Below, one piece after another: positions 28,908-46,284 of a stretch of 61,876 bases of DNA (positions are counted from its first letter, which is position 1; each line of letters opens with the position of its first letter). Under the pieces are notes generated by a model, which made no database searches, was not told the origin of the DNA, and worked only from the letters and a program-made list of their open reading frames with translations. The stretch comes from Planctomycetes bacterium GWF2_41_51 (GTDB lineage: Bacteria; Planctomycetota; Phycisphaerae; Sedimentisphaerales; UBA12454). Where the stretch lies: assembly GCA_001825665.1 (NCBI GenBank), contig MHXZ01000021.1, positions 1 through 61,876 on the forward strand. Direction: 5' to 3'. Both the position numbers and the translations under genes were made by a program.

Positions 28908-30668
28908 ATGAAAAAATCAAATTTAACTATCACGATTCTGTTGTGCTTCGCTTCCTTTGGCTGCTGTAACGATTCAAATTCGGCAACGAAGCAGCTTTAT
29001 AAATTGTTTGATGAACAGCTTGAATTCAGCTTGCGCGAAAATCCGGTGTTTGCGACTTCTTATGGTGATCACAGGTTCGACGACAAATTGGCGCAAGTTT
29101 CTCTCGAAGATGTGGAACGGAGAAACAAACAGGCAGAGATATTTCTGGCTGCCTTGAAATCAATCGACCGGCGTCAATTATCGCAGAAAGATAAATTGAA
29201 TTATGATTTGGCTAAAAGACTACTCGAAGAAGGTATAAAATGGTTCGAGCTGCAATCCTATCTTATGCCGATCGATCAGATGGGTGGGTTTTATACTGGG
29301 TTTGCAAGATTGTCGGAGAACCTCAGTTTCAAAACAGTTCAGCATTACGAAAATTATATAAAACGTCTGAACGCCTTTAAATCCTATACAGAGCAGCATT
29401 TGGGCATCATGCGCATCGGCATAAAAGAAGAAATGGTTCCGCCAAAAGTAATTTTGCGCCAAATACCGCAAAGCATCGAATCTTTGATTGCACAGGATAT
29501 AAATGAAAGCGTGCTTTATGAGCCATTTAAAAATTTTCCTCCAGCTTTCAACCAATCGCAGGTTGAGCAGCTCCATTCAAAGGGCAAGCAGGCGATTCAG
29601 GAGGTTGTAAGACCTGCTTATAAGAAGATTTTGGAATTTGTTACGGATGAATATATTCACGCAGGCAGAGATGAGATTTCTATTTACGGGCTGCCAAATG
29701 GGGGGGAATATTACCGGCAGTCAATTCGGGATTATACAACGCTGGAACTTTCACCTGAAACAATTCACGAAATTGGAAAATCTGAAGTTGCGCGAATTAA
29801 AAAAGAAATGATGGAACTGATTGAAAGGACAGATTTTAAAGGAAATTTCAAGGAGTTTAAAAACTATATTCAAACCAATAAAAGATTTCGTGCTGATAGT
29901 GCAGAGGAAATGCTTATGCAGGTTGCGTGGATAATGAAAAAAACTGATGGGGAATTGCCTAAGTTTTTCAAAGTGCTGCCGCGAATGCCAGTTGGCATTA
30001 AAAAAGTCCCATCATATACAGAAGCAACATCGCCGATAGCATATTATTCAAGCCCTTCTTTAGATAAAACAAGAGCCGGTTTTTATTATGTCAATACGTA
30101 TGATGTGATAAATAAGTCTTTATATAATTTAACTGCCACAACTCTTCACGAAACTAATCCCGGCCATCATCTTCAAATTGCACTTGCGCATGAGATAAAT
30201 GATGTGCCATTATTCAGGAGAATGGCAGGTTTTACTGCTTATACCGAAGGATGGGCTTTATATGCAGAACAGGTTGGAGAGGAAATGGGCATATACGAAG
30301 ATGAATACAGCAGATTTGGTAAGTTAGATAATGATATGTGGCGTGCTTGCCGATTGGTCGTGGATACCGGCATACATCATTTTGGCTGGCCGCGTCAAAA
30401 AGCGATAGATTATATGCTCGAGAACACATCGCTGGATAAAGATAATGTGATTGTCGAGGTAAATCGCTATATCGCTTGGCCGGGCCAGGCTTTAAGCTAT
30501 AAAATCGGAGAACTGAAAATATTAGAACTACGAAAAAAGGCAGAAAAACAGCTCGTCGGCAAATTTGATATTCGAGAATTCCACAATGTTATTTTGCGCC
30601 AAGGCGCCCTGCCGCTTGATATTCTCCAGCAAAAAGTTGAGCAGTGGCTTTCAAGCGTTCAAAATTGA
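28908..30668 (+). CDS. DUF885 lipoprotein (putative zinc peptidase)
   Basis: This 586 aa lipoprotein has a signal ending in a Cys (LLCFASFGCC). The DUF885 family is thought to be metallopeptidase-like. The zinc motif HETNPGHHLQ is visible near residue 410, followed by TEGWALYAEQVG, which supplies the third ligand Glu, and by AWPGQALSYKIG. The start is ATG 28908 with GGAGAA upstream. Its 3' end overlaps the convergent rhombosortase gene by 80 bp. Confidence 0.85.
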   Translation: MKKSNLTITILLCFASFGCCNDSNSATKQLYKLFDEQLEFSLRENPVFATSYGDHRFDDKLAQVSLEDVERRNKQAEIFLAALKSIDRRQLSQKDKLNYDLAKRLLEEGIKWFELQSYLMPIDQMGGFYTGFARLSENLSFKTVQHYENYIKRLNAFKSYTEQHLGIMRIGIKEEMVPPKVILRQIPQSIESLIAQDINESVLYEPFKNFPPAFNQSQVEQLHSKGKQAIQEVVRPAYKKILEFVTDEYIHAGRDEISIYGLPNGGEYYRQSIRDYTTLELSPETIHEIGKSEVARIKKEMMELIERTDFKGNFKEFKNYIQTNKRFRADSAEEMLMQVAWIMKKTDGELPKFFKVLPRMPVGIKKVPSYTEATSPIAYYSSPSLDKTRAGFYYVNTYDVINKSLYNLTATTLHETNPGHHLQIALAHEINDVPLFRRMAGFTAYTEGWALYAEQVGEEMGIYEDEYSRFGKLDNDMWRACRLVVDTGIHHFGWPRQKAIDYMLENTSLDKDNVIVEVNRYIAWPGQALSYKIGELKILELRKKAEKQLVGKFDIREFHNVILRQGALPLDILQQKVEQWLSSVQN

Positions 30669-31224
30669 AAATAATAAATATTAAGCTGCCGCCGATTAAA
30701 CCACCTGCGTGAGCAACAGCGATTGGTGAGCCGATTAAGCCGCTATGCATAAAATCGAAGAACATCTTTCCTGTTGCAGCTTCCAGGCTGCATTTGGCTG
30801 CAAGTAATAACAACAAAATAATTCCTGTCATACGATTTGTTTTTTCGGCAGAAGTGCAGAATATCATTTCCATTGCACATATACACATCAAGCCGTGACC
30901 GATGCCGGAAAGGCCGCAATAACCAACTGAATTTATTTTCGGCAGAACAATAACTGCCGCAAGCAAACTAGAAAGACCGCACACGACAACATATACCGTT
31001 CTCCTGAACCGGCTCGGCTCGGCAATCTGTGAATAAAGTACAAGAAAAGCTGATGCGTCCAACACCAGATGATACCAACTTACATGTATGAAAGGATGAG
31101 TTATTATCTGCAGCCAGTTTGAGGTCGACGTAAATATCAATTCTTCAAACAAGCCGCCGAAAGCTAAAGGTATGTTCAAAAGAACAATCGCTGCTGCATA
31201 GACATATATTTCCCATCTTTTCAT
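30589..31224 (-). CDS. Rhombosortase-type rhomboid intramembrane protease
   Basis: This polytopic protein of about 211 aa has roughly six membrane segments. It carries the rhomboid/rhombosortase marks: HPFIHVSWYHLVLDASAFLVL near residue 45, the catalytic-serine motif GLSGIGHGL near 105 and the histidine motif AVAHAGGLIGG near 170. Rhombosortases cleave proteins bearing a short glycine-rich, hydrophobic, basic C-terminal tail. Such a protein is encoded immediately upstream (31287-33305), 62 bp away. AAAGGAG lies six bases before ATG 31224, which decides the start. Confidence 0.75.
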   Translation of the reverse strand: MKRWEIYVYAAAIVLLNIPLAFGGLFEELIFTSTSNWLQIITHPFIHVSWYHLVLDASAFLVLYSQIAEPSRFRRTVYVVVCGLSSLLAAVIVLPKINSVGYCGLSGIGHGLMCICAMEMIFCTSAEKTNRMTGIILLLLLAAKCSLEAATGKMFFDFMHSGLIGSPIAVAHAGGLIGGSLIFIIFNFERLKATAQLFAGEYQAAGRLGAK

Positions 31225-31286
31225 TTTATACTCCTTTCGAAGCCGCCGACGCATACATACGCCGACGGCTTCGGTTAATTGAATAA

Positions 31287-33305
31287 TTATTTCTGTTGTC
31301 TTCTGCGTTTGAGATATAACGTCAATGCCAGGAAAACAGGACCGACTGGACCGGTTCCGACATTCGGAGAAGGAAGACCTTTGAATGCGCCCGTTTGACC
31401 ATTTTGATTATCTACTCTGTAATTTTTTACTGGGGCATTTTGGCGAGCTTGTTGCGCCTGACGCTCGGAATTAACACGGTCAGCATTTTTTCGCTGAATA
31501 CCCAATTCTTCCATTTCAATTTCCGCAACAACAAGCATAGATGTATAATCTGTAACCAGGGAATATTCGGTGCCCAATTCAACTATCTGTTTTCGCAAAG
31601 CTTCTGTTTCGCCATTCTCGCGAATATCCTTCATAACATCTTCAATGCCGGACAATGCCCACAGCCGTTCTATTTCAGGATTGTCAATATCAACGTCAGG
31701 CAATTGAGCGGTACAAGTCCATGACTGCGGGACGCCGGAAATCTTCGCCTTTAATTCAATCTGCACATCACCTGTCCCGTCAAATTGACCGAACATAACA
31801 AGCTGCTGCCCCTGGTAAAGATTGCCGATTTTTTTAGCCGTAAGATTTTTAACTTTCTCGCCATGGAATTCTAATTCAACATCATGCATATTTTCAAAAA
31901 GAATCTTTGCCTTTGCCTGGAGGATTCTGCCGACAATATCATCGGATGTTGATATGTTCATTGCAAAGCCGCCCGACTCTTCGGCGAGCCTGTCCATAAG
32001 AGGCTGATTTGCGCTGTTGCCGATTACGAATGTGAACAGACGGATGTCATATTTCCTGAGCAAATTAATGAATTGCTTATGTTCGGTATTTCCTACATTT
32101 GCAACTCCATCTGTAACCAGTATCACACTTGTCGTGCGGTCATCGTCAAGGCCGCCATAAGCCATTTCAAGACCAGCATAAAGATTCGTACTCCCGTCTG
32201 CATCGATTGATTTGATTGTTTCTATGATACTCTGAATATTTTCAGGTGTTGCCTGAATATATCCCCCGCTCAAATCCGAAGCATTGTGATTGAAAGTAAT
32301 TATACGGAAACGGTCATTTGGAGACATTTTGCCGATAACCTTTGATACTCCGTCAGCAAGAGAAACAATTTTTCCACCGCTCATACTGCCGGATTTATCC
32401 AGAACAAAAACCCAATCAACTCCTTCAGAAATTCTCTTGAGATCTGCCGCCGGCGTAACTACAACCATGAAAGTTCCGGTAGAATTAACATTTTCTCTGT
32501 ATGGGATGAGTTCAACTCTGGCTGGAACCTTATCATCAAGCCTGTAATAAACGATTATATCTTTATTAAGCGAATCACCTTCCGGACTTTCAATCATTAC
32601 ATGATAATTAGTATTATAATCAGGCTGATTAGCATCCTTAGCGATTTTTTCGATTACAGCTTTGTTCACATAATCAGGTACTCTGACATCCTTCACAGGA
32701 AAAGCAGATTTTAATTCAAGATCGAATTTAAATGACTCCTCTACCTGGTCATCTACCGACCAGAATGCTATGCGTTCCTCGTCAACACCGCCCTCAGCTA
32801 ATGGATAAACATATCTGCCGATGTTCAAATCTATTTCTATCGGCTGATAATACACCAACCGCACTCTTGTCTCGGCATTCGCCCTGACTGGATACACAGA
32901 AACATCGAATGTTTTATAATCATCCTTCTCAGCCAATGCTGTGTCATTACCTTTTTGGATTTGCTCTTCATGGATTTTCTTGGCTATTTCTTTTTCCAGC
33001 ACTTCACCAACAATTTCATTGCCGTTGATCCATAAGCTTAATTCAGAAAGACTTGCCTGTTTTGGAACGGGAAAAGAATAAATTGCCCGCAGGTCCGATG
33101 TTCCATAATTAAAAAACACCTGGTCAACTTCAGTCCTTGCAAAACCGTTGTTGATAGTCACATTAACGGTATGAGATTTTATTTTGACATCGTTTTTGTC
33201 GCCGCCTTCAATCGGTTTTAACAGACCGGCCGCAAACGATGCTGCTGAAATCACAAACAGCACCAACATAACCCCAGCTACTCTTGTTTCATTTTTTCTC
33301 AACAT
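31287..33305 (-). CDS. VIT/von Willebrand A domain surface protein with a C-terminal sorting tail
   Basis: This 672 aa protein has a signal peptide in the first ~30 residues. A VIT domain (about 40-170) and a vWA domain (about 290-460) follow, with an intact metal-binding MIDAS motif (VFVLDKSGSMSG; later TDGVAN). A helical region and a linker of polar residues come next. The last 27 residues form a tripartite tail: a GTGPVG glycine motif, a hydrophobic stretch PVFLALTLYL and KRRRQQK. This is the kind of signal cut by rhombosortase or archaeosortase-type enzymes. VIT-vWA proteins are known partners of dedicated sortases in other bacteria. Here the partner appears to be the adjacent rhombosortase. 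Confidence 0.85.
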   Translation of the reverse strand: MLRKNETRVAGVMLVLFVISAASFAAGLLKPIEGGDKNDVKIKSHTVNVTINNGFARTEVDQVFFNYGTSDLRAIYSFPVPKQASLSELSLWINGNEIVGEVLEKEIAKKIHEEQIQKGNDTALAEKDDYKTFDVSVYPVRANAETRVRLVYYQPIEIDLNIGRYVYPLAEGGVDEERIAFWSVDDQVEESFKFDLELKSAFPVKDVRVPDYVNKAVIEKIAKDANQPDYNTNYHVMIESPEGDSLNKDIIVYYRLDDKVPARVELIPYRENVNSTGTFMVVVTPAADLKRISEGVDWVFVLDKSGSMSGGKIVSLADGVSKVIGKMSPNDRFRIITFNHNASDLSGGYIQATPENIQSIIETIKSIDADGSTNLYAGLEMAYGGLDDDRTTSVILVTDGVANVGNTEHKQFINLLRKYDIRLFTFVIGNSANQPLMDRLAEESGGFAMNISTSDDIVGRILQAKAKILFENMHDVELEFHGEKVKNLTAKKIGNLYQGQQLVMFGQFDGTGDVQIELKAKISGVPQSWTCTAQLPDVDIDNPEIERLWALSGIEDVMKDIRENGETEALRKQIVELGTEYSLVTDYTSMLVVAEIEMEELGIQRKNADRVNSERQAQQARQNAPVKNYRVDNQNGQTGAFKGLPSPNVGTGPVGPVFLALTLYLKRRRQQK

Positions 33306-33361
33306 TTTTTTTACTCCTTAAATAAGATTAATAAATTTATGACAACATCAACTTACATAAA

Positions 33362-33376
33362 GCAATGGCCGTGCCA
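33362..33376 (-). promoter_or_regulatory. Sigma-54 promoter of the VIT-vWA/rhombosortase operon
   Basis: On the minus strand TGGCACG (33376-33370) is followed after four bases by TTGCT, giving the exact GG-N10-GC spacing of sigma-54 (-24/-12) promoters and an almost perfect consensus. The start would be near 33350, about 45 bases before the ATG. A divergent sigma-54 activator gene starts 120 bp away. Dyads CATAAG/CTTATG (33391-33419) and CATAT/ATATG (33421-33446) lie upstream as possible activator sites. Confidence 0.8.
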
Positions 33377-33461
33377 AACGAAACACTTTCCATAAGCAAT
33401 TATATTCAAAATACTTATGACATATAGAAACAATGATCCTGATATGAACAAAACAATATTA

Positions 33462-33498
33462 TTGACAAATTATGCACATTGATATACATTATATGTAT
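33462..33498 (+). promoter_or_regulatory. Candidate promoter and palindrome at the activator start
   Basis: TTGACA (33462-33467), 17 bp and TACATT (33485-33490) would place the start of transcription close to the ATG at 33497. A perfect palindrome ATACAT-TAT-ATGTAT (33484-33498) covers the -10 region and the first base of the gene. It could be an autoregulatory site. No Shine-Dalgarno sequence precedes the ATG, consistent with a leaderless message. Confidence 0.4.
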
Positions 33499-34984
33499 GG
33501 CAACACTAAAACTCATACCATCCGACAGGGCATTTTTCTTGCTCGTTTCAAACGCAGTATTTGCAAATCCTTTCAGCTTAAAACGAGAAGAAATTGACAA
33601 AAAAATAGCCGCAAGTTCAGAGAATCAGTCGTTTAAAGAACTTATTGCCCAGGCTTCGGCACAAATCAGTAAAAGATTGCAGCAGCTTGACATCAATGGA
33701 ACGATTAAAATTAATGATTTTAGAGAATCAGACCGTTACATTATGCGAAACGTATTTCTTTTCGATGTTTTCCATAAATTTAAAAACAGGTTCGATGATA
33801 TTATTTTAAAACAAATCGCCGCTGGAAATGAACCTATTCAGGTACCGTTTGCAAAAGAAGCCCTGACTCTTCTTACCAAACGTGGTTTAGACTCTTCTGC
33901 TGCCAATGAATGCTTCTCCCTGTTTTATCAAATTCGTCGTGCTTTTCATTTTATCGAAAGAGGTCTTATAGGCCAGAGCAACTCCATGAGACAGCTTCGA
34001 ATGAATCTGTGGAATAATATTTTCACACACGATATCGGCTATTATGAACGATATATCATTGATAAGATGGAAGACTTTTCTACCCTGCTGCTTGGCCCTA
34101 CAGGCTGCGGCAAAGGCGCAGCAGCGGCGGCAATAGGGAGAAGCGGGTTTATTCATTTTGATGAAAAGAAGAATGTATTCGCCGAAAGCTTCACTAAATC
34201 TTTTGTGCCAATCAATTTATCGCAATATCCAGAAAGCCTGATTGAATCAGAATTATTCGGACATTCCAAAGGTGCATTTACAGGTGCTACAACCGCACAT
34301 AACGGGCTTTTTGCTTTGTGCGGAAGATACGGCTCAGTATTCCTCGATGAAATCGGCGATATTAATATACAGATGCAAATCAAACTCTTGAAAATACTGG
34401 AGGAACGCATTTTCAGCCCGGTCGGCAGTCATGAAAAAATAAAATTTCAGGGCAGAGTAATCGCAGCAACTAACAAATCAATAGCCAATTTGCGAAAACA
34501 GAATAAATTTCGAGATGACTTCTACTACAGATTGTGTTCAGACTGCATCACAGTGCCCTCGCTCCAACAGCGAATACAGGAAAACCCACAGGAAATTGAC
34601 GAGCTGATTACATATACAATTGAACGTATCACAGGACATAAAGCTGATGAATTGGCGCAAGCAGTCAAAGAAGTCATAGATAAAAATCTTCCCAAAGATT
34701 ACAGTTGGCCCGGAAATGTAAGAGAATTGGCGCAATGTATAAGAAGAGTTATCATAAAACGTCATTATGCCGGCGACATAATATCAAAACCTGATGATGC
34801 AAAATCAAAACTTTTTTTGGATATCGAAGAAGGACAAATCAGCGCTGAAAATTTATTGGCAAACTATTGTGCTTTAATTTATGAGAAATACAGTACTTAT
34901 GAAGATGTGGCTAAAATAACAAAGTTAGACAGAAGAACTGTTAAAAAGTATATTCAAAAATACAACCAAGAGAATACCGGCTGA
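33497..34984 (+). CDS. Sigma-54-dependent transcriptional activator with a novel sensory domain
   Basis: This 495 aa protein is a bacterial enhancer-binding protein. The AAA+ domain (about residues 175-410) has the Walker A LLLGPTGCGKG, the sigma-54 contact loop GAFTGAT, Walker B GSVFLDEIGD and the arginine-finger region FRDDFYYRL. A C-terminal helix-turn-helix reads YEDVAKITKLDRRTVKKYI. The first 170 residues are helical and match no receiver, GAF or PAS domain I know, so the signal is unknown. The gene is divergent from a strong sigma-54 promoter and is the likely activator of the VIT-vWA/rhombosortase operon. Confidence 0.88.
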   Translation: MATLKLIPSDRAFFLLVSNAVFANPFSLKREEIDKKIAASSENQSFKELIAQASAQISKRLQQLDINGTIKINDFRESDRYIMRNVFLFDVFHKFKNRFDDIILKQIAAGNEPIQVPFAKEALTLLTKRGLDSSAANECFSLFYQIRRAFHFIERGLIGQSNSMRQLRMNLWNNIFTHDIGYYERYIIDKMEDFSTLLLGPTGCGKGAAAAAIGRSGFIHFDEKKNVFAESFTKSFVPINLSQYPESLIESELFGHSKGAFTGATTAHNGLFALCGRYGSVFLDEIGDINIQMQIKLLKILEERIFSPVGSHEKIKFQGRVIAATNKSIANLRKQNKFRDDFYYRLCSDCITVPSLQQRIQENPQEIDELITYTIERITGHKADELAQAVKEVIDKNLPKDYSWPGNVRELAQCIRRVIIKRHYAGDIISKPDDAKSKLFLDIEEGQISAENLLANYCALIYEKYSTYEDVAKITKLDRRTVKKYIQKYNQENTG

Positions 34985-36984: not shown

Positions 36985-37059
36985 CGGGGTGTAGCTCAGC
37001 TTGGCTAGAGCGTCTGGTTTGGGACCAGAAGGCCGTAGGTTCGAATCCTATCACCCCGA
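36985..37059 (+). tRNA. tRNA-Pro (TGG), integration site of the genomic island
   Basis: The acceptor CGGGGTG/CACCCCG is perfect. The anticodon loop TTTGGGA within TCTGG/CCAGA reads TGG. The T arm contains TTCGAAT and the discriminator is A. The last 22 bases are repeated at 49915-49936, so integration of the island kept the tRNA intact. The integrase gene ends inside this tRNA on the other strand. Confidence 0.95.
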
Positions 37060-38408
37060 TTTTTATCCAAAAATTGGATGTTGGATTTTTCGGCCAACAA
37101 TGCACTTTCCTTGCTGTTTACACCGCCAAAACCATCATTTCCTAAAAGAGTAGCATTTTGTGAATTGTCAAGAATTGTCAAGTTCTGTTTATCTTCGTGG
37201 GCAGTTTTTGGGCAGTTATTTTCTACGCTGCAATCATCCGTTCCGGTCTTGGCTAATGCCTCTTGTTTAACAACGAAATCGGGCAGGCTTTCAATTGCTT
37301 GTTGAGATTGCCCAACGTAAAGGTGTGTGTATCTTTGCATCGTCAATAAGTTTGAATGTCTCATTATGGATTGTATAACCTTTGGATTAACGCCCGTCTG
37401 AATCAATAAACTGGCTGTAGTATGTCTTAAACTGTGAAAGTCTGCATATCTGCCAGCTTCATCTTCGTATTCAATCCCTGCCGCTTTCAAATCAACCTGT
37501 ATCATTAAAGATCCCTTGCCCTCTCTAAGTGAAAAGGCCATTGACTGCGGAGTTTTATTTCGCAGGAAGTCTTTTAACATTGCCGATGTTGATTGTCTCA
37601 GGGGAAGTACAGCCCCGCGCCTTGCCTTTTCGTTTTCATCCCTGACAGTAACGCTATTGTTCTTGAAATCAAAGTCTGATACTTTTAACGTCTTTATTTC
37701 GTTGTATCTAAGACCATCTTCAACGGCCAAGCGGTAAATCAACGCCCTTTCCTTACCGGTTATTTTCCTAAATGGCTTTCCGTTTTCTGCTGTCAGTATC
37801 AGCTTTGCAACATCATCAGCGGTCAAAGCTCTGCGGGGATGGCGCTGGTCGGATTGCAGAACTCTTGGCAATTCAATCAATCCGAAATTGTTTTTAGGCA
37901 TCTTACCGTTATCTTGCAGCCACTTTGTGAATTGCTTAAAACCGGCTATATATTCTTTTTTAGTTTTAGCGGATATTGTCAATCCGTTTACATAGGCAAT
38001 AAAAGCATTGGCGTCTAAATCAGAAATCACATTGAAGCTGCATTTTTTACATACACGGTTTATAAGATTCTTGATGTTGAATAAATACAGTTCAGATACC
38101 CGCTTAATTTTCAAACTTTCAATGAAGTCTTTTATATGTTCGGATAACTGGTTTTTGCCTGCCGTTCTCGATGTCGAAACCAAACCTGCAATCGCAAGTT
38201 TCCTGACAATCCGTGTCGGCAGGCAATCAACAGCCTTTTGCAAATCTTGAGATATAACATCATCGCTCTGGCGTATATCAATTAACCGGTCGATGGTATC
38301 ACCGAGCCGTTGACTTTGTTTTTCGGTTTTAAAGGCTACCATCCTGTAACGTACATCCCGAAAGCGGAAATCTAAGTAGAACTTTTTATCGCTCTTAAAG
38401 ACTTTCAT
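37005..38408 (-). CDS. int: Tyrosine site-specific integrase of the island
   Basis: This 467 aa protein has a core-binding domain at about residues 90-190 and a catalytic domain at 195-380. The catalytic residues are visible as EDGLRYNEIKTL (Arg), HSLRHTTASLL (His-x-x-Arg), MRHSN (His) and QRYTHL (nucleophile Tyr). A polar tail of about 80 residues follows. The gene runs through the attL core and stops inside tRNA-Pro. In the excised circle the frame would end sooner, after RTDS, so integration changes its C-terminus. Its start overlaps the stop of the upstream regulator gene. Confidence 0.93.
   Translation of the reverse strand: MKVFKSDKKFYLDFRFRDVRYRMVAFKTEKQSQRLGDTIDRLIDIRQSDDVISQDLQKAVDCLPTRIVRKLAIAGLVSTSRTAGKNQLSEHIKDFIESLKIKRVSELYLFNIKNLINRVCKKCSFNVISDLDANAFIAYVNGLTISAKTKKEYIAGFKQFTKWLQDNGKMPKNNFGLIELPRVLQSDQRHPRRALTADDVAKLILTAENGKPFRKITGKERALIYRLAVEDGLRYNEIKTLKVSDFDFKNNSVTVRDENEKARRGAVLPLRQSTSAMLKDFLRNKTPQSMAFSLREGKGSLMIQVDLKAAGIEYEDEAGRYADFHSLRHTTASLLIQTGVNPKVIQSIMRHSNLLTMQRYTHLYVGQSQQAIESLPDFVVKQEALAKTGTDDCSVENNCPKTAHEDKQNLTILDNSQNATLLGNDGFGGVNSKESALLAEKSNIQFLDKNRGDRIRTYGLLVPNQTL
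37038..37059. repeat. attL core (3' end of tRNA-Pro)
   Basis: This is the left copy of a 22 bp perfect direct repeat starting GGTTCGAATCC and ending CACCCCGA. It forms the T arm and acceptor 3' strand of tRNA-Pro. The right copy is at 49915-49936. Confidence 0.9.
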
Positions 38409-38596
38409 TTTTTGCCCTTAGATTTTACAAGTTCGAGACCGAAATATTTACATAGCATATCAGCAGTTTCGCAACAAAGGTCTTTGCCTTGCATTGCCTT
38501 GCATAGCTGGCTTTGTGAAACGCCCGATTCCTTTGCTATGACATATCGGCTTTTGCCGCTTTTCTCAATCACTTTTTTAATGGTTTCTAAAATCAT
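38405..38596 (-). CDS. Small Cro/CI-type (XRE) regulator
   Basis: This 63 aa protein is a single helix-turn-helix of the XRE class (SRYVIAKESGVSQSQLCKAMQGKDL, then TADMLCKYFGLEL). It overlaps the integrase start as ATGA and so is co-translated with it. It could control integrase expression or excision. Confidence 0.8.
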   Translation of the reverse strand: MILETIKKVIEKSGKSRYVIAKESGVSQSQLCKAMQGKDLCCETADMLCKYFGLELVKSKGKK

Positions 38597-38712
38597 AATG
38601 ATATGTTACCTCTTTGCTTTCTTATTGTCAAGTAATTATCTGCCAGCCTTTGTAATTGTTATTCCGAAATCAGCCATTACATGGGCCTTTGAGGTTAATT
38701 AAGAAATAAAAC

Positions 38713-39303
38713 TTACTTAAAATAAGCATAATATACGCTTATAACACCTGCTTCATCGCCCGTAGAGCCGTCAGCATCCGTAATCTCGCAATAAATCCAT
38801 TCGTAGCCGCAATTATAGCCAAACAGCTTAGCTGTTCTATCGCCGCCTGCTGCGTCTGCTACCTGAAACGTTTCTGGTGTGCCTTGTGTTGTTATTGTTA
38901 ATGTGTCAGCCCAAAACTTATTTGTTGCTGCTGTGCCAGTGTGAGGATACTTAACCACTGCTTGCGTGCCAAGTACGCCTGTCCCCTCGGCTATTAGCTC
39001 GGCCATACCATTGTTACTTCGCCAAGCCCATATTTTATAACCAAAGGTTTTATCTGCCGCCGCCCCGCCGCAGAAATAGAAAACTAAGTTTTTCTTTCTC
39101 TGGTCAATATTAAGATTGTCGAGCATGACCGCGCCAGCCGGTTTACTTGCAAAATCACCGCCTGTAGTTAAACCTATTAGCTCGCTGTTTTCATCGGCCT
39201 CGGCCCTCAAAAGATATAAAGGGACGGCCGTAGTAGGCCCCGCCGCATTTGCGAAAACATTAAAACTCATCAATAACACTAATCCTAAAATTACCTTTTT
39301 CAT
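38713..39303 (-). CDS. Exported island protein of unknown function
   Basis: This 196 aa protein has a clear signal peptide (MKKVILGLVLLMSFNVFANA). The mature part is predicted mostly beta, with two Cys pairs (CGG and CGYEWIYC). I do not recognise the fold. AAAGGA lies before the ATG. It is the third of three exported proteins read in the same direction (41380 to 38713), likely one transcript. Confidence 0.65.
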   Translation of the reverse strand: MKKVILGLVLLMSFNVFANAAGPTTAVPLYLLRAEADENSELIGLTTGGDFASKPAGAVMLDNLNIDQRKKNLVFYFCGGAAADKTFGYKIWAWRSNNGMAELIAEGTGVLGTQAVVKYPHTGTAATNKFWADTLTITTQGTPETFQVADAAGGDRTAKLFGYNCGYEWIYCEITDADGSTGDEAGVISVYYAYFK

Positions 39304-39324
39304 TTGTAAAATCCTTTAAAAAAA

Positions 39325-40905
39325 TTATCTATTCTGTTTAATACAATCTTCGTCCGTTAAAATTGTGCTACTTCGCTTTATTCGTTTCACAGGACTAAAC
39401 CTGCTGGGTATAACAACATCTTCATTGCCTTTGGCTTCAAGCCACTGGATAGAATCAACATCGCCGGTAATTGTCGGCGTGTGCTTGTCATCTGCTATCG
39501 ATGTCCCGCTGCCCTCGTCAAACATAAAACGAACAATAGGAACAACAGGAGAAAAACCTACAGCGTCCGCTGATTGTTCTCTTGGTTCTGGTGGATAGCC
39601 TACAACGAATAAAAGTTTTAAATCTAAAGAAGCCCCTTCGCATCCATCATAGAAACGTAATCTATCAAACTCTCCAATGAAATTTGGCTTGCCGGGTACT
39701 TGTCCAATTATTACCGGTGCCGAATTTGTATAATCTGCGATAGGCTGATTCAGGTAGCTATTGCTATACTCCCAGCCATCGCCATCTACCATTGTGCCGA
39801 AAACCGAAACATTTCCATCTTTCCTGCTGAATCCAAAAGCGTGCCATCTGCCATCATCAACACGATACGCATCTGTTCTGCCATATCCGATGGCTACGCC
39901 ATTAGGCTGAATAAGATAGAATCCAAATCTTCCATTTTCAATACATGCGTAATAACCCGGCCCGCTTCCGGTTCTTTTATAGAACAATCCACAGGTTGCC
40001 TGCATCGTGCGAAAATAAAAACATATTCCTACGCCGCTAAAAACGTCCATTGTGTCCAATGAATCGTTTATTGTTACAATTTCATTACCTGTAAATGTTA
40101 GACTATCTGCTGAATTTGCGACTACATTAACATCCATCGTTGCCGTGTTACTGTAATATGTTCCGTCAAAACCTTTATAATCAAAAGTCTTGTGTCCTGT
40201 GGTAAAAAATCTACCTACAATCGTACTGCTATATTCAGGAATTGTATAAGGCAGCATTGACGATGTAATAAAATCGGCATATTCTGGAGTCGCAACAAGA
40301 ATACCATTGGATGGTAAAGAGGTTATAACATATTGAAGCTGTTCGGTATTATCATCATTGGTAACACCAAGTGATAAATCAATATAACAATCCTCAAAAA
40401 CAGGTGTGCATGGTTCTGCAATTGCCGCCTCGTTTATGTCCGGCACAAGACTTATAAATACCGCATTAACGTCCTTATTTGCATCCATCACAATTGTAGC
40501 AGGATTTGTACTACCGGCCAAATCACCGTTCCAGCTTTGAAACGCATAGCCGCTGCCAGGTACTGCCATTAAAATAACTTCGCTGCCCTGTATGTAATCG
40601 AGTTCATCTGGCGTTATCATTACACTACCATTTGTCGCTGAAACGATTGTTAGTGTATATCTCTCTGGTTCCGGTGCTGGCAAACTTCCCCCAACATATC
40701 CGCCAGCCATCAAAGCGAAGTCTACAAAATTTACATTACCATCTTCATTAAAATCACAGTTCGGGTCTGCAACTGGAGAATCAAGCCAATAACTACAAAA
40801 CGTATTTACGTCATTTGCCTCTACTCCGCCGCTGCTGCCAAAATCACCAGTAACAGCATAGCTCCATCCTGCGAACAGTAAAATTATAAAAAGTATCTTC
40901 TTCAC
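39325..40905 (-). CDS. Secreted protein: dockerin-like repeat, InlB-type beta repeat and LamG domain
   Basis: This 526 aa protein begins at GTG 40905, with GGGAGG eight bases upstream and a signal peptide KKILFIILLFAGWSYA directly after. A dockerin-like pair follows (VEANDVNTFCSYWL, then CDFNEDGNVNFVDFALMAGGY). A bacterial-repeat domain (YTLTIVSATNGSVMI...SWNGDLAGS) comes next, and a LamG/concanavalin-like domain at about 290-450 (DGRWHAFGFSRKDGNVSVF, GEFDRLRFYDG). It is a host-type cell-surface protein carried on the island, as cargo or as an altered host surface or receptor protein. Confidence 0.78.
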   Translation of the reverse strand: MKKILFIILLFAGWSYAVTGDFGSSGGVEANDVNTFCSYWLDSPVADPNCDFNEDGNVNFVDFALMAGGYVGGSLPAPEPERYTLTIVSATNGSVMITPDELDYIQGSEVILMAVPGSGYAFQSWNGDLAGSTNPATIVMDANKDVNAVFISLVPDINEAAIAEPCTPVFEDCYIDLSLGVTNDDNTEQLQYVITSLPSNGILVATPEYADFITSSMLPYTIPEYSSTIVGRFFTTGHKTFDYKGFDGTYYSNTATMDVNVVANSADSLTFTGNEIVTINDSLDTMDVFSGVGICFYFRTMQATCGLFYKRTGSGPGYYACIENGRFGFYLIQPNGVAIGYGRTDAYRVDDGRWHAFGFSRKDGNVSVFGTMVDGDGWEYSNSYLNQPIADYTNSAPVIIGQVPGKPNFIGEFDRLRFYDGCEGASLDLKLLFVVGYPPEPREQSADAVGFSPVVPIVRFMFDEGSGTSIADDKHTPTITGDVDSIQWLEAKGNEDVVIPSRFSPVKRIKRSSTILTDEDCIKQNR

Positions 40906-40906
40906 T

Positions 40907-41380
40907 TTACAGCCCTCCCAATTCTGGTTCGGTTGTAAACACTTCAAAAACCCATTCATTCAACTCTTGCAATTGAGCTATTTCGTTGGGGTCTGTAATA
41001 TTCGGGTCTGTGGCTATTTCATTTATAGTTTTGACGAACTGGTTGTTCTGTTCTTTCTTTTTAATATCATTACAATCCACAGTTTCGCATACCTTGTCCA
41101 CAACTTCTTTAATTGGCGGGTCTGGTATTCCGGTGTCTGTGCCTAATGCGTTTACATCCTTAACGATATTACTTGATTCTGCTGCGACTTCATTGAGATC
41201 TGCGATTCTCTCTGTCAAAATAGCGTCAAAAGTGCCTGAATAAGTCTTTGTTTTAAGTGCTGCCTTTTTAGCTGGCAATTCGTTAATTCTTGCCTGCAAA
41301 GCTACCCGGCGTTCCTCGATGGTATCAGCCAATACGACCGCCGCCAACACTAAAGTTACTACTAAAATCCATCTTTTCAT
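40907..41380 (-). CDS. Small exported coiled-coil protein
   Basis: This 157 aa protein has a signal peptide (MKRWILVVTLVLAAVVLA). A charged helical region follows (TIEERRVALQARINELPAKKAALK) with a Cys-x6-Cys pair (CETVDC). No family is recognised. AAGGAAAA precedes the ATG. Its stop is one base before the GTG of the dockerin-like protein, so the two are translationally linked. Confidence 0.6.
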   Translation of the reverse strand: MKRWILVVTLVLAAVVLADTIEERRVALQARINELPAKKAALKTKTYSGTFDAILTERIADLNEVAAESSNIVKDVNALGTDTGIPDPPIKEVVDKVCETVDCNDIKKKEQNNQFVKTINEIATDPNITDPNEIAQLQELNEWVFEVFTTEPELGGL

Positions 41381-41402
41381 AATTTGTTTTCCTTAAAAAT
41401 TG

Positions 41403-42212
41403 TTAATATTTTTTCTTTAATTTTTGCAGTCTTTTATCATTGCCGGATAAATTTAAAATCTGACAAGCACCTGCAATACGGCTTAAAATTCTCTGATCAA
41501 AACCCTTGCCCAACTCTTCAACAGTTTTGTTAGTACTAAGGAATGTAGGCAGCATAAAATTAATCCTATGGTCGAGAACGTTAAACAATGTCCGAAGGCT
41601 AAAATCGCTTTCAGTGTTAAGACTGGCTGTTGTGCCTAAATCATCAATGAATAAAAAACGAACACTTTTAAGTTTATGGAGAATTTGAGATTCGCTTAAA
41701 CTGTTTCCCGAATATGAAGCGCGTATGTCGGACAATAAATCTTCATAACGATAAAAAATAACATAGTTCTGCCGACAAATGAGATATCTGGCAAAGGCAT
41801 AAAGCGAGTAAGTTTTCCCGCAACCAACAGAACCACTCAAAAGCAGCCCTTCGAAGGGCTTTCTTGCAAGAAAAGTTTTCTTGATTATTTCGGCTACATT
41901 GCGAATATGCGAATCTCGATAAAGAGGCGGCACAACAAAAGAAATTGCATCACGTAATTTTTGTGATTTCAACTTTCTTTGTGCGCGAACCTGCGTTCGT
42001 TCTTCAGTAATCTTACGTTCGGGACTGTTAAAACAATCCTGACAAAGCAAACCGAAACATTCTGTATCACCAACACGACCAAGCGGTCTGCGCGGCCTGC
42101 TATTGCATTGTTGACAAAGTTTAGCGTCAGACTGCGACGGTTTGCCCGAATCCACTTTCAACAGGGACTCGATAATCACGTCGTTCAGGTTTTGAGAATT
42201 TGTTTTTTTCAT
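41403..42212 (-). CDS. DnaC/IstB-type helicase-loader ATPase
   Basis: This 269 aa AAA+ protein is of the phage DnaC kind. An N-terminal zinc-binding segment (CQQCNSRP...CFGLLCQDC) is followed by Walker A LLLSGSVGCGKT near residue 130 and Walker B VRFLFIDDLGTT near 180. It probably loads the host replicative helicase at the island origin. Its start lies 86 bp inside the preceding replication gene. An internal start at a TTG or GTG codon before the zinc segment is possible. Confidence 0.8.
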   Translation of the reverse strand: MKKTNSQNLNDVIIESLLKVDSGKPSQSDAKLCQQCNSRPRRPLGRVGDTECFGLLCQDCFNSPERKITEERTQVRAQRKLKSQKLRDAISFVVPPLYRDSHIRNVAEIIKKTFLARKPFEGLLLSGSVGCGKTYSLYAFARYLICRQNYVIFYRYEDLLSDIRASYSGNSLSESQILHKLKSVRFLFIDDLGTTASLNTESDFSLRTLFNVLDHRINFMLPTFLSTNKTVEELGKGFDQRILSRIAGACQILNLSGNDKRLQKLKKKY

Positions 42213-42804
42213 TTTTTCTATCCCAACTTAAAATCGTAAAATAATGACTTTTATACTTATATCCTTTTGACCCGATGCCGTTATTTAGTTCTGTGATTTT
42301 TTCTTTCAGGATTGCTTCTCCAAACTGGTCAAGTAGTTTTCTGTATTCCTCGTCAGTCAGGTAAACAAAATCAAGATACTTTGTTTTAGCTTCGGGTGTA
42401 TGTGGTTCCTTTTTATGGTTACTTTTATATGGTTTATTTTCAGTACTATTTTTTAAGTCAATTACTGACTGATTTTTTAAGTCAATACTGACTGATTTTT
42501 TAATACAATTAGATTCTATTGACTGATTTTTTAAGTCAATTACGCTGTACCTGTTGCTATGCCCCCGGCCCCGTTTTTGGGGTTTCTGAATTGAAATTTT
42601 TTTGTTCTTGGCAAGACGTGCTATGCTATTTTGAACAGTATTGAGATTTAAATTTAAATCAATCGCAATAGTTCGCTCGGCAGGCCAGCAATGTCCATTT
42701 CCTCCTTGCCGCCATAAGAGATACTGCGCAATGAGTTTATCTGTTGGATTTAAAACCTTATCTATGAGTAAATCTATCGGAGTTTTCAGATAATTCTCGT
42801 TCAC
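42127..42804 (-). CDS. Phage-type replication initiator (winged HTH plus DnaD-like C-terminus)
   Basis: In this 225 aa protein residues 1-85 form a winged helix (PTDKLIAQYLLWRQGGNGHCWPAERTIAIDLNLNLNTVQNSIARL). A repetitive linker (SVIDLKNQS units) is encoded by iteron-like DNA. The C-terminus YLTDEEYRKLLDQFG...GSKGYKYKSHYFTILSW is the motif of phage replisome-organiser proteins. It probably binds the repeats in its own gene as the origin and recruits helicase through the DnaC-like protein encoded next. Confidence 0.8.
   Translation of the reverse strand: MNENYLKTPIDLLIDKVLNPTDKLIAQYLLWRQGGNGHCWPAERTIAIDLNLNLNTVQNSIARLAKNKKISIQKPQKRGRGHSNRYSVIDLKNQSIESNCIKKSVSIDLKNQSVIDLKNSTENKPYKSNHKKEPHTPEAKTKYLDFVYLTDEEYRKLLDQFGEAILKEKITELNNGIGSKGYKYKSHYFTILSWDRKNEKNKFSKPERRDYRVPVESGFGQTVAV
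42443..42540. repeat. Iteron-like direct repeats, candidate replication origin
   Basis: Four copies of a 20-21 bp unit close to TGACTGATTTTTTAAGTCAA start at about 42443, 42466, 42489 and 42520. The first copy is diverged at its 5' end and the third differs at AATAC. They are AT-rich, in one orientation, and lie within the initiator gene, as in lambdoid O genes and many satellites. Confidence 0.65.
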
Positions 42805-42951
42805 CTGATCGCCCCCGCAAACTGACAGGATGATATTTTCACTTGACCGCGATGCCTCTGTGTGCTAAAAATATTTCTGTAAAAGCTATGAAAAATTCTT
42901 CGTGCCTGCCGCCGCCTTCGCCAAAAGGTCTGCGGCTTTTTTATTTTCTGC

Positions 42952-43149
42952 TTAGTTTTCATTTGTTTTACCTTTCAAAAAGTTCTCAATATCAGTTCGT
43001 AACCAGTACCGCCTTTTGCCGATTACCTTACGAGCAGGCGGGAGTTCTTCACAGGCTAACCACTGATAGCAGGTTTCACGGGACACGCCCAAAAACGCGC
43101 TCAGCTTGGTTAGGTTCAAAATCGCAGGTAAGTTGCTAACATCAAGCAT
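42952..43149 (-). CDS. Excisionase/AlpA-type HTH protein
   Basis: This 65 aa protein is a MerR-like winged HTH of the excisionase family (LTKLSAFLGVSRETCYQWLACEELPPARKVIGKRRYWLRTDIENFL). Such proteins act as the directionality factor for the integrase or as an AlpA activator. It lies upstream of the replication gene on the same strand. Confidence 0.8.
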   Translation of the reverse strand: MLDVSNLPAILNLTKLSAFLGVSRETCYQWLACEELPPARKVIGKRRYWLRTDIENFLKGKTNEN

Positions 43150-43181
43150 TAACGGCCAGCCCTTTCTTGTGTAGGGTTGCT

Positions 43182-43307
43182 CAATGCTGTTGATTTTCGG
43201 GGTTTTCGGTTATAGTATTCCTGTTCTGCCTTAGCCAATGCTTTGGCCGCCCTGATTATCTCACTTATGGCAGCAACTGCTTTTTCTTTTGCTTTTTCGT
43301 TTCTCAT
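43182..43307 (-). CDS. Possible 41-residue helical small protein
   Basis: An ATG at 43307 opens a 41-codon frame rich in Ala, Lys and Glu (EKAKEKAVAAISEIIRAAKALAKAEQEYYNR). It would form one amphipathic helix. It lies on the same strand as its neighbours between two HTH genes. No ribosome site is visible, so this call is weak. Confidence 0.3.
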
Positions 43308-43461
43308 GCACGTAGATTAACAAAAAAACTTTCAGACAAATTTACGGAAAATATGAGCGGTAAAAATAAATTAAAAATCGCTTATAATGATTGAAAAAGG
43401 GGGAAAAATTAGTAATAAAAAAATATTTGGCAAATATCAGGCAAATATCAGTAAGATATTT

Positions 43462-44751
43462 CTATTTGCATTGCCTGTTCTTTTTTATCTCCTCTTGTCT
43501 TGCCCGCTGTTCAAAAGCTTCATCACTAAAATGGTCGATAGGTCTCAGATTTTTTAGGTATTGTTCAAAATCCTGTGTATAAACCTTAGCCCTATGGGTT
43601 TTTGTGTTTTTCATCCATCGAATAGTATTGCCGGACTTCCTTAAAAGTTTACTTAAAGTAGGTGCAGATATTTTTTTCTCTGACATTTTGATGGCTATGG
43701 AGCTTGATATATAATTTGGAGTATCATCTCTCCATTTTTGTTCCTTTGTTGATGGATTTATTTCTTTGTCGCTATCTGGTTGCGTTCCTTCTGATGGGTT
43801 TTCAAGGCTGGTTTTGTTGCTGGCTATCTGTTGCGCCTCTATTTCTATTTTGTACCGTAGTTTTTTCATTTCTTGTATTATATTTTCCAATGGAAGCAAT
43901 CTCCATTTGAGCGATTCCCCATAATTCCTTATAGTTCCATCATAGGGATACATCAATATCTCAATTTCATCTATCAGAGATTGTATATCTTCCGGCCAAT
44001 ATTCTTTAGGTTTTATTTTGGCTATTTCATAATTATTCAGTGATTCTTTGATTCCGTCTATCCGCAAACTGCGTTTAGCTTCTTCGGTAAACTCTCTTGC
44101 TGGTTTACCATAAAGTATTTCATCCTGTGAAGGCAATATCGGTTTTTGAGGTTTTTTTGGCTTATCAGTATTTTCTGATGGTTCGGTGATTTTTCCATTA
44201 ACATTGCCAATTTCTTTTAATGTTTTGTTTACAAAATCTGTTTGTTTTGATTTTAAGGTTTCGAGTTTTTCGATTATTTCAGAAATAACTTCTAAGGTTG
44301 GTTGTATTTTATCATCCTCAGCTTGCCGCCTGGAAAGGTCGGACCAAAAATCCTTGTGAGACATACAAACCAAAAGCTCTGTCCAATCCGTGTAATCCTC
44401 TGTGGTAACACTGGCAAAATTTTCCATAACGCTACGATGATTAACAAGAACCTCTTTGGCAAACTGATTTTGAAATGCCTCTTTCAAAACATCATTATTG
44501 AAAGGATATAAGCATTGCTGGAATATTTTGAGAAGTTCGTTAAAACGTTGTTTTTCAGGTGACCAGCGTGGCTTTCTTATTCTATTCCGAACCATCATAA
44601 AGCGATACTTGGCGGATTCAATAAGGGATTGATGCGGATATTTGCTCAGCCTGCCAAGTTTTTTTTCTTCATCAAGTTGACGGTCGATTTCAGAATTCCA
44701 GAAAATGGGATTGAGTTCTTCAAGAACTTGCCTTAAACGCATTATATCCAT
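43462..44751 (-). CDS. Large island protein with a C-terminal winged HTH, function unknown
   Basis: This 429 aa protein is hydrophilic and predicted helical. Residues 1-190 are rich in charged and aromatic residues. A Pro/Lys-rich linker follows (KPKKPQKPILPS near 200). The last 80 residues include a likely HTH (KKISAPTLSKLLRKSGNTIRWMK). I recognise no catalytic motif. By position among regulators and replication genes it may be a regulator or a replication accessory protein. Confidence 0.6.
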   Translation of the reverse strand: MDIMRLRQVLEELNPIFWNSEIDRQLDEEKKLGRLSKYPHQSLIESAKYRFMMVRNRIRKPRWSPEKQRFNELLKIFQQCLYPFNNDVLKEAFQNQFAKEVLVNHRSVMENFASVTTEDYTDWTELLVCMSHKDFWSDLSRRQAEDDKIQPTLEVISEIIEKLETLKSKQTDFVNKTLKEIGNVNGKITEPSENTDKPKKPQKPILPSQDEILYGKPAREFTEEAKRSLRIDGIKESLNNYEIAKIKPKEYWPEDIQSLIDEIEILMYPYDGTIRNYGESLKWRLLPLENIIQEMKKLRYKIEIEAQQIASNKTSLENPSEGTQPDSDKEINPSTKEQKWRDDTPNYISSSIAIKMSEKKISAPTLSKLLRKSGNTIRWMKNTKTHRAKVYTQDFEQYLKNLRPIDHFSDEAFEQRARQEEIKKNRQCK

Positions 44752-44784
44752 TTTTTACTTGTCCTTTTTCGTACCTGCTTAAGT

Positions 44785-44982
44785 TCAATATACCGGAGTT
44801 TCAGTTTCAGCCGCTTCAACTATCAACTTGTCAAAGCTCGCAGCCCTGTACTTTTCTTGTTTACCGATTCGAACAACCTGTAATCCCTTAGCTTTCAAAA
44901 TATATTGCTTTCGCCAAAAAGTTGACCTGCTGATCCCTAGCTTTTTGCATATGTCATTTTTTGATAGAAGTTTTTCTGTCAT
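44785..44982 (-). CDS. AlpA-like small HTH protein
   Basis: This 65 aa protein has an HTH beginning LSKNDICKKLGISRSTFWRKQYIL and a basic wing (VRIGKQEKYRAASFDKL). It resembles phage and satellite AlpA/Cox regulators. It is encoded 33 bp upstream of the large HTH protein on the same strand, just after a terminator. Confidence 0.75.
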   Translation of the reverse strand: MTEKLLSKNDICKKLGISRSTFWRKQYILKAKGLQVVRIGKQEKYRAASFDKLIVEAAETETPVY

Positions 44983-44994
44983 TCACAATGTCCT

Positions 44995-45028
44995 AAAAAT
45001 CAGGGCAGGCGGTTAAACCTGCCCTGAT
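44995..45028 (-). terminator. Intrinsic terminator after the 116 aa gene
   Basis: An 11 bp stem ATCAGGGCAGG/CCTGCCCTGAT (44999-45009 and 45018-45028) has an 8-base loop. On the minus strand it is followed by a T run. It ends transcription of the gene at 45045-45395 and separates it from the regulator/replication block. Confidence 0.8.
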
Positions 45029-45044
45029 CCCTGAATCGTTTGTT

Positions 45045-45395
45045 TTATTTAAGGTTCATACCGCTAAGAAAAGCTACCCATTCACAAACGGGCGCGACTT
45101 CGCTTTCGTAGTCCAATTTATCCCTATGTCCATCAATAACCGGTTTTATTCTTTCATATAACCGGTTCATAATAGATTTTGCAAGGGCGGGTCTTTGTCC
45201 ACTTAATGTAATCTTTAGAAGCGCGTACGATGTTGCTGCGCAGTCCAGTGTCAGGTTGTTGTTGCTCAGGGCGTTGTCTAAGAACTGAACGTCTTTTAAT
45301 GATTTGGCAACGATGGGATTAATGATTTGCCTGAGCTGTGATTTTACTTTTTTTGTGTTCTTTACTGCCTTAGTTCCTTTTGCTAATAGTTTCAT
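45045..45395 (-). CDS. Helical island protein of unknown function
   Basis: This 116 aa basic, helical protein (GTKAVKNTKKVKSQLRQIINP at the N-terminus, then DCAATSYALLKI and EWVAFLSGMN) is not recognised. It has a strong ribosome site (AAAGGAG), its own terminator and a structured leader, so it is probably a single-gene transcript. High expression is suggested by those signals. Confidence 0.6.
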   Translation of the reverse strand: MKLLAKGTKAVKNTKKVKSQLRQIINPIVAKSLKDVQFLDNALSNNNLTLDCAATSYALLKITLSGQRPALAKSIMNRLYERIKPVIDGHRDKLDYESEVAPVCEWVAFLSGMNLK

Positions 45396-45406
45396 AATAA
45401 ACTCCT

Positions 45407-45526
45407 TTAAAATATAGGTGGACAGGGAATAATGACGCCTATTAGCAGCGCGGTCGTCCTTACAGATAGACCTACCCTGTCCGTTAATTTTGGTTTAAAC
45501 AAACGATATGATGCTAATAGTTTCAT
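45407..45526 (-). CDS. Short reading frame sharing its start with the 116 aa gene
   Basis: A 39-codon frame begins with the same 17 bp as the next gene (MKLLA in both), a direct repeat of TGCTAATAGTTTCATAA at 45381-45397 and about 45512-45528. It has a hydrophobic ending (ALLIGVIIPCPPIF) and no ribosome site. It may be a leader peptide or only a trace of a partial duplication. Confidence 0.3.
   Translation of the reverse strand: MKLLASYRLFKPKLTDRVGLSVRTTALLIGVIIPCPPIF
45420..45482 (-). promoter_or_regulatory. Candidate structured 5' leader
   Basis: On the minus strand GGACAGGG and CCCTGTCC (45482-45475 and 45427-45420) close a 63 nt domain. Inner pairings are possible, such as GGTC/GACC. 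It ends 25 bases before the ATG at 45395, just ahead of the AAAGGAG ribosome site. Its nature (protein-binding leader, riboswitch-like or chance) is open. Confidence 0.35.
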
Positions 45527-45645
45527 AACGGTATTGTCGCTGGTTTTTTTAAAAAGTCAAATACTTTTCTTAAAGAAAGTAAAAATATTTTCCAGTATGA
45601 AACAAAATGCCACAAAAGGGATGTCGAAATATGGGAAAATTATGC

Positions 45646-45674
45646 TTGCAAACCTGCGATAAAAGGCATAATTA
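45646..45674 (+). promoter_or_regulatory. Candidate promoter of the paired small genes
   Basis: TTGCAA (45646-45651), a 17 bp spacer and TAATTA (45669-45674) would start transcription next to the ATG at 45680, giving a nearly leaderless message. This region divides the minus-strand replication block from the plus-strand block of the island. Confidence 0.35.
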
Positions 45675-45679
45675 ATAAT

Positions 45680-45919
45680 ATGCTTTTAACCTTAAAACAG
45701 TTCGTTGAGAAGTATAAAGACCTGAACCTTACAATCGGCTGTATGAGAATGGCAATTTATAGAGGGCATCTATTGGCCATTAAAACATCAAATCATTGCT
45801 GGCAAGTTGACCCTAAAGACGTGCTTAGCTGGCTTTCAAATATTAACCATAACAATCCAGCGGCAATTAGAAAGCTGAACGAAATTTTCTATTCTGAAAA
45901 ATTCATAGGCAATGAATGA
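45680..45919 (+). CDS. Small excisionase-fold-like protein, first of a tandem pair
   Basis: This 79 aa protein shares with the next gene product the pattern LxLxQFVxxxK, GCMRMAIYRGHLLAIK, PKDVLSWL and NPAAIRKLNEIFY. The middle resembles an HTH with a wing, as in excisionases. The function is unknown. It overlaps the next ATG (ATGA). No ribosome site is visible. Confidence 0.55.
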   Translation: MLLTLKQFVEKYKDLNLTIGCMRMAIYRGHLLAIKTSNHCWQVDPKDVLSWLSNINHNNPAAIRKLNEIFYSEKFIGNE

Positions 45920-46284
45920 GCAAAAAAAGGCTAACTCTTGCGCAATTTGTTAAGCACCCTAAATATAAACAGTTGAATATAACGGCCGGTTGTTTAGCAA
46001 ATGTAATTAAAAGAGGGCAACTATCTGCGTTTAAACACCCTGAGCAACCATTAAAGATAGCCCCGGACGATGTTTTTAGATGGTTAGTCAAGCTGAATAA
46101 AGGCAATCCAAAAGCAATACAAAAGCTAAACCAGATATTTTACGGTACAGATTTCTATGCAGAGCAAGAGCAGGAAATGATTGCAAAGCTAACAGAAAGA
46201 TACGAAAATTTATTAGTTTGCACCCCAGAGATGGTTAATAGGATAATGAGCGATAAAATACGCCGCAAGTCCCGGAAACCATAA
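45916..46284 (+). CDS. Small excisionase-fold-like protein, second of a tandem pair
   Basis: This 122 aa paralog of the preceding protein has LTLAQFVKHPKYKQLNITAGCLANVIKRGQLSAFK, PDDVFRWLVKLN and NPKAIQKLNQIFY. It adds a helical, charged C-terminus of about 40 residues. The coupled pair suggests a heterodimeric DNA-binding regulator. I recognise no named family. Confidence 0.6.
   Translation: MSKKRLTLAQFVKHPKYKQLNITAGCLANVIKRGQLSAFKHPEQPLKIAPDDVFRWLVKLNKGNPKAIQKLNQIFYGTDFYAEQEQEMIAKLTERYENLLVCTPEMVNRIMSDKIRRKSRKP

Follow-up and report, generated by a model that had tools for sequence, protein, structure and literature searches.

A rhombosortase/VIT-vWA pair of Planctomycetota and its probable sigma-54 switch

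Dedicated pairs of a rhombosortase and an adjacent GlyGly-CTERM protein were reported in 2011, with Rhodopirellula baltica and Opitutus terrae among the species included, and targets with VIT and vWA domains are known to bear GlyGly-CTERM, PEP-CTERM or LPXTG tails, the GlyGly-CTERM case being drawn in Figure 3C of that work (Haft and Varghese, 2011; PMC3237569). In Vibrio cholerae, cleavage of VesB by rhombosortase leaves the second Gly of the GlyGly motif exposed, and the new C-terminus bears a group that contains glycerophosphoethanolamine and may derive from phosphatidylethanolamine (PMC6219818). Sigma-54 control has been reported for a different sorting system, the PEP-CTERM proteins of Proteobacteria, where it operates via PrsK/PrsR and an activator motif (Haft, 2006; PMC1569441). 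Here we analysed a window of 61,876 nucleotides from Planctomycetes bacterium GWF2_41_51 (contig MHXZ01000021.1), in which a VIT-vWA gene is followed on the minus strand by a rhombosortase gene, and a sigma-54 enhancer-binding protein (EBP) reads outward on the plus strand. As in the 2011 pairs, the rhombosortase adjoins a single tail-bearing target, the VIT/vWA type being represented there as well. A preliminary description of this window had presented both the trio and the pairing as a finding; the trio is supported and conserved, but the pairing was already known. The regulator and the promoter are not described in the 2011 work. We consider it likely that the two genes form a surface-anchoring operon under a private sigma-54 switch made up of the EBP, a palindromic operator and a -24/-12 promoter. 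What seems new here is the conserved TACAT-N3-ATGTA operator, the regulator family and its wider targets.

The VIT-vWA gene (31287-33305, minus strand) encodes a surface protein of 672 amino acids with Pfam matches to VIT (6.5e-30) and VWA (9.1e-17), a Sec signal peptide and an intact DxSxS motif in the vWA domain. It ends in the tail PNVGTGPVGPVFLALTLYLKRRRQQK, whose Gly motif, hydrophobic stretch and Arg cluster are encoded at 31287-31373 (PSPNVGTGPVGPVFLALTLYLKRRRQQK). Across 30 aligned tails two Gly are invariant and a Pro nearly so, and each tail then passes through a hydrophobic stretch into an Arg/Lys end; the consensus of the Gly motif is GGGGG-A-x-D-P, of which the window carries the variant GTGPVGP. 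With its Gly motif, hydrophobic stretch and basic C-terminal end on a secreted protein, the tail has the tripartite build of GlyGly-CTERM, yet in sequence it is a variant. TIGR03501, the GlyGly-CTERM model, misses it at E-values up to 10 and matches none of eight related VIT-vWA proteins scanned, and in this the Planctomycetota tail (GGGG-A-[IL]-D-P, or GTGPVGP in the window) is unlike the GlyGly-CTERM tails of PMC3237569. A tail profile, trained on these same rhombosortase-linked tails and to be read with that caveat, found one strong match per genome in 13 of 14 genomes, always on the rhombosortase-linked VIT-vWA protein; in the remaining genome there are two such tails and also two rhombosortases. 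The marine proteobacterial sortase system (TIGR03784/TIGR03788) likewise places one VIT-vWA protein, with a homologous body, beside its own sorting enzyme. The window protein does not belong to that family of sortase targets: it scores 217.9 bits against TIGR03788 (cut-off 551.65), it has no LPXTG motif, and the neighbouring enzyme is a rhomboid.

That enzyme, of about 211 amino acids, is encoded at 30589-31224 on the minus strand. Its longest open reading frame (ORF) spans 30589-31254, with the likelier start at 31224, where AAAGGAG lies 7 nt 5' of an ATG. At the other end, the gene overlaps the 3' end of a convergent DUF885 gene by 80 bp (30589-30668). The protein matches Pfam Rhomboid (1.7e-9) and scores 85.7 bits against the rhombosortase model TIGR03902, narrowly above the cut-off of 84, and the Ser-His dyad, Ser106 (GLSG) and His172 (AHAGG), is invariant among 16 relatives. 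Its AlphaFold model (pLDDT 78) resembles GlpG and iRhom; the best fold matches, to iRhom2 and GlpG, reach probabilities of 0.97-1.00, yet Foldseek E-values of only 0.04-0.16, and a sequence search of the PDB with the same query gave no match. Judged by sequence and modelled fold, the window encodes a true rhombosortase, for which lipid transfer is a prediction only. The preliminary description had named the protease a rhombosortase, given it a single substrate and pointed to the tail; the TIGR03902 score and rhomboid fold, the tail-profile search and the alignment of 30 tails, among them that of the window, found where it had been placed, bear out all three.

The strongest competitor to the anchoring reading is that the protease is an ordinary hydrolysing rhomboid, so that the VIT-vWA protein is released to the medium or degraded. 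The bare margin over the TIGR03902 cut-off and the atypical GTG motif favour this, as does the release of VesB when it is cleaved by GlpG (PMC6219818). We nonetheless think it unlikely: the enzyme scores well above most other rhomboids in the sampled genomes, and it is paired one-to-one with tail-bearing substrates across the phylum, a hallmark of dedicated sorting systems. The VesB system remains the model for the chemistry, with a rhombosortase acting on a Gly-motif tail; the V. cholerae enzyme differs in that it serves many targets encoded by distant genes and has a known type II secretion partner. We name no such partner here because, among the several secretins of the genome, none passes the GspD cut-off.

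A search of 392 Planctomycetota genomes with TIGR03902 gave a match above the cut-off in 31, and neighbours were mapped around these and nine weaker matches using profiles built in this analysis. Because the model at loose E-values picks up generic rhomboids in nearly every genome, we counted only matches above the cut-off or with a VIT-vWA neighbour. On this count a VIT-vWA gene adjoins the rhombosortase gene, upstream and on the same strand, in 30 of the 392 genomes. A profile of the N-terminal domain of the EBP found exactly one copy in each of 44 genomes: 20 of the 30 that bear the pair versus 24 of the 362 others (Fisher p 1.5e-14, or 9e-14 without the window genome, values made optimistic by the shared ancestry of the genomes). 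Where both are present, the EBP gene is adjacent and divergent to the pair in 15 of 20 genomes. A scan of named genomes returned 285 EBP relatives, and among the best 80 of these, which were examined for neighbours, trios also occur in Verrucomicrobiota such as Opitutaceae; the divergent linkage recurs in many families. The trio, whose lack of conservation had been set beforehand as grounds for giving up the idea, is thus conserved.

The candidate sigma-54 promoter of the pair, TGGCACGGCCATTGCT (33376-33361, minus strand), fits the -24/-12 consensus at 12 of 12 positions and places the predicted transcription start near 33350. Chance would give 0.12 sites in the window, a figure computed for a slightly looser pattern, and this is one of six perfect matches in the 4.83-Mb genome. 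Others precede the glnK/amtB operon, a flagellar hook operon and a small heat-shock gene, identified by reading their proteins. Such genes are usual sigma-54 targets. No sigma-70-like site was found on the minus strand of the VIT-vWA/EBP intergenic region. Upstream of VIT-vWA genes, GGCAC-N7-GC, which has the spacing typical of sigma-54 promoters, is present at 14 of 29 loci, where block shuffles give 1.2; no alternative spacing yields more than four matches, and the opposite strand yields none.

A second conserved element lies at the EBP start. An unbiased count of dyads in 95 EBP upstream regions found TACA-N5-TGTA in 32, against 0.25 in shuffles, and TACAT-N3-ATGTA, at nine or more of ten positions, is present in 47 of 102 regions against 0.9 when shuffled. 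The palindrome usually sits at, or shortly 5' of, the EBP start codon, and its spacing from the sigma-54 site falls mainly into two groups, 109-115 and 123-128 bp, which differ by about one turn of the helix. In the window a perfect copy, TACATTATATGTA (33485-33497, strand-neutral), lies about 122 bp from the sigma-54 site and is the putative operator, or upstream activating site. Weaker second copies are enriched across loci at offsets of 21-22 bp and 11 bp; the window has a second, degenerate and putative operator, GACAAATTATGCA (33464-33476, strand-neutral), 21 bp from the first and weak taken alone. Both are overlapped by a predicted sigma-70-type promoter of the EBP gene (TTGACA-N17-TACATT; 33462-33490, plus strand). 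The perfect palindrome covers the -10 of that promoter and touches the EBP ATG, and it is therefore likely that the EBP represses itself and that its transcript is leaderless or nearly so. The genome contains five perfect palindromes, and that at 33485-33497 is the only one with a sigma-54 site nearby; the other four are all within ORFs with no consensus-like sigma-54 site near, and we reject action of the EBP at several genomic sites as far as perfect copies go. In five genomes the EBP gene is on another contig than the pair, and in three of these a site resembling the operator stands at a fitting distance from the VIT-vWA promoter (P values 0.017, 0.057 and 0.007). Promoter, trio and operator are, by virtue of their conservation across genomes, beyond what chance would place in the window. 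In sequence terms, the EBP, the operator at its start and the outward-facing -24/-12 element are a conserved cassette before the pair, and the EBP probably binds the palindrome and activates the two genes.

The EBP (33497-34984, plus strand; 495 amino acids from the ATG at 33497, preferred over a TTG at 33479) matches Sigma54_activat (1.2e-42). It consists of a helical N-terminal domain (residues about 1-190), an AAA+ domain with GAFTGA and both Walker motifs, and a C-terminal helix-turn-helix (LDRRTVKK); rpoN is present in the genome, and the protein belongs with the sigma-54 EBPs. The N-terminal region, with an NPF motif and an FTHD-containing linker (33497-34087), is all-helical in its AlphaFold model (pLDDT 88). 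It has no Pfam match in the window member and no credible one in 49 members, its best fold matches in the PDB are unconvincing (E 1.3 with Foldseek, Z 5.2 with VIA-align), and PDB sequences searched with a profile yielded no match; these are negative results and no more. In its layout of N-domain, AAA+ and helix-turn-helix the EBP resembles RtcR and other single-component EBPs, and RtcR is its best NCBIfam match. It is not an RtcR, however: the score of 184.9 bits is far below the cut-off of 650, only the AAA+ region is matched, and the N-domain has no Pfam family. Nor is it a PrsR (TIGR02915; 161.6 bits versus a cut-off of 502.6), and it has no receiver domain. The PEP-CTERM/exosortase system shares C-terminal sorting and sigma-54 promoters, there with a conserved activator motif about 63 nt upstream, and differs in that PrsR works as a response regulator together with a kinase, the operator ends in TTTACA, the targets are many and the enzyme is an exosortase (PMC1569441). 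That this trio recurs, switch sites included, in further Planctomycetota and in Verrucomicrobiota suggests an uncharacterised regulator family. The preliminary description was right about an N-terminal domain of no recognised family and about the -24/-12 promoter, which has a perfect consensus and recurs in relatives on the same strand at the same spacing; its sigma-54 switch stands as a prediction, while the operator, conserved across loci, and the broader target range of the regulator family had escaped it.

How the switch might work can be outlined. EBP dimers would sit on TACAT-N3-ATGTA, probably on two copies 21 bp apart, and the overlap of the operator with the EBP -35/-10 would keep the EBP level low. 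A signal received through the helical N-domain would cause the EBP to oligomerise, loop out about 120 bp and open the sigma-54 promoter. The VIT-vWA protein would then be exported by Sec and retained through its C-terminal helix; the rhombosortase would cut at the Gly motif and join the new C-terminus to a glycerophosphoethanolamine-containing moiety, as for VesB, so that the processed protein stays on the envelope surface. Between the VIT-vWA stop and the rhombosortase ribosome-binding site lies a 16-bp RNA hairpin (31238-31273, minus strand; -30.1 kcal/mol, z -6.8), which could set the ratio of substrate to enzyme.

The EBP family is not confined to this operon. Its divergent partner is an LplT-Aas fusion in 26 loci (above the PRK08633 equivalog cut-off in three of three examples scanned), and about a dozen have B12 radical-SAM genes there; phospholipase-like hydrolases and a fatty-acid desaturase also occur, and many loci have other partners. 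Among 79 loci without VIT the sigma-54 spacing signal is found in 26, against 4.9 expected. At L186, L187 and L188, in genomes of the same order, radical-SAM, phospholipase-like and LplT-Aas genes lie opposite the EBP, and both a sigma-54 site and a perfect operator are present; this is likely a lysophospholipid-repair operon under sigma-54; an initial guess of RND efflux, made from gene sizes, was dropped when Pfam gave radical-SAM, hydrolase and acyltransferase instead. In a Nitrospinota contig (L075:3-3191) the divergent gene encodes a rhombotarget lipoprotein (TIGR04179, 328 bits), which is accompanied by a rhombosortase of its own; this lipoprotein is a second kind of rhombosortase target beside the EBP family. 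On a FastTree phylogeny the VIT-linked EBPs are scattered, with at least eight changes forced by well-supported branches, and the EBPs nearest to that of the window come from the same order and lie opposite LplT-Aas. The simplest reading of these sequences is that the switch has been passed between gene sets. In an open-access literature search, which is not proof of absence, we found no paper joining GlyGly-CTERM with sigma-54, none joining rhomboids, Planctomycetes and sigma-54, and no description of this regulator, its operator or its second target set; a survey of sigma-54 regulons from 2025 is silent on rhombosortase, von Willebrand and sorting.

This breadth, and the scatter of the VIT-linked members, count against a private switch, as do several other observations. 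A detectable EBP is missing from 10 of the 30 pair-bearing genomes, and several trio loci have no obvious -24/-12 element or palindrome, so either this control does not extend to every genome or its motifs have diverged. The presumed match of EBP to operator is one of position and conservation. On the protein side, the window tail escapes TIGR03501 and has GTG in place of the Gly run; anchoring to phosphatidylethanolamine is carried over by analogy from V. cholerae; and the sensing of phospholipid or envelope state is argued from association. The pair-bearing genomes that lack an EBP would suit one that is a mere neighbour, an orphan regulator of other genes such as those of lysophospholipid recycling, with the pair under a different EBP or expressed constitutively. 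So would the divergent partners of its closest relatives (same order, up to 58% identity), which are LplT-Aas, hydrolase and radical-SAM operons, not VIT-vWA. However, operator and sigma-54 site share one intergenic region at a conserved distance, the divergent linkage is recurrent, and no other perfect palindrome in the genome adjoins a sigma-54 site. The LplT-Aas and hydrolase genes of the window genome, on contig C58, have neither an operator nor a good sigma-54 site, and for the same reason we reject control of that operon by the EBP in trans. The neighbour-only explanation is accordingly quite improbable. That the EBP mainly represses its own gene and the pair, its sigma-54 dependence being vestigial, would fit the overlap of the operator with the EBP promoter and start codon but is hardly credible, given that all 15 aligned members retain Walker A, Walker B and a GAFTGA-type loop and that the sigma-54 sites are conserved at fixed spacing.

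Elsewhere in the window, a tRNA-Pro (36985-37059) is abutted by a tyrosine recombinase gene (37005-38408), and an exact copy of at least 21 bp of its 3' end recurs at 49916. The stretch 37039-49940 is for these reasons an integrated element of about 12.9 kb that contains replication-type genes; it adjoins the rhombosortase locus and is no part of it. Secreted proteins at 39325-40959 (LamG-like) and 57429-59909 (subtilisin-like) have dockerin-like Asp/Asn repeats, as judged by eye only.

Dedicated rhombosortase pairs have been on record since 2011 with the timing of their switch-on unexplained, and a conserved regulator whose operator can be read from the sequence opens that question to direct testing. 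Two independent sets of target genes also help in guessing the signal of the uncharacterised EBP N-domain. Membrane phospholipid or envelope state seems the most likely candidate, because the family elsewhere faces lysophospholipid recycling genes and because both recurrent target sets, lysophospholipid recycling and lipid-coupled anchoring, act on ethanolamine phospholipids. More speculatively, and with considerable doubt on our part, the EBP may represent an unrecognised family of sigma-54 activators, with its own helical N-domain and TACAT-N3-ATGTA operator, that reads membrane phospholipid state across at least Planctomycetota, Verrucomicrobiota, Acidobacteriota and Methylomirabilota. Such a family would drive lysophospholipid recycling (LplT-Aas, phospholipase-like hydrolase) in some lineages and the rhombosortase module, whose chemistry may consume phosphatidylethanolamine, in others, with the window lineage having moved the switch from the first of these target sets to the second. 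The distribution of targets suggests a link between the anchoring of surface proteins and the upkeep of membrane phospholipids in phyla whose regulation is little understood.

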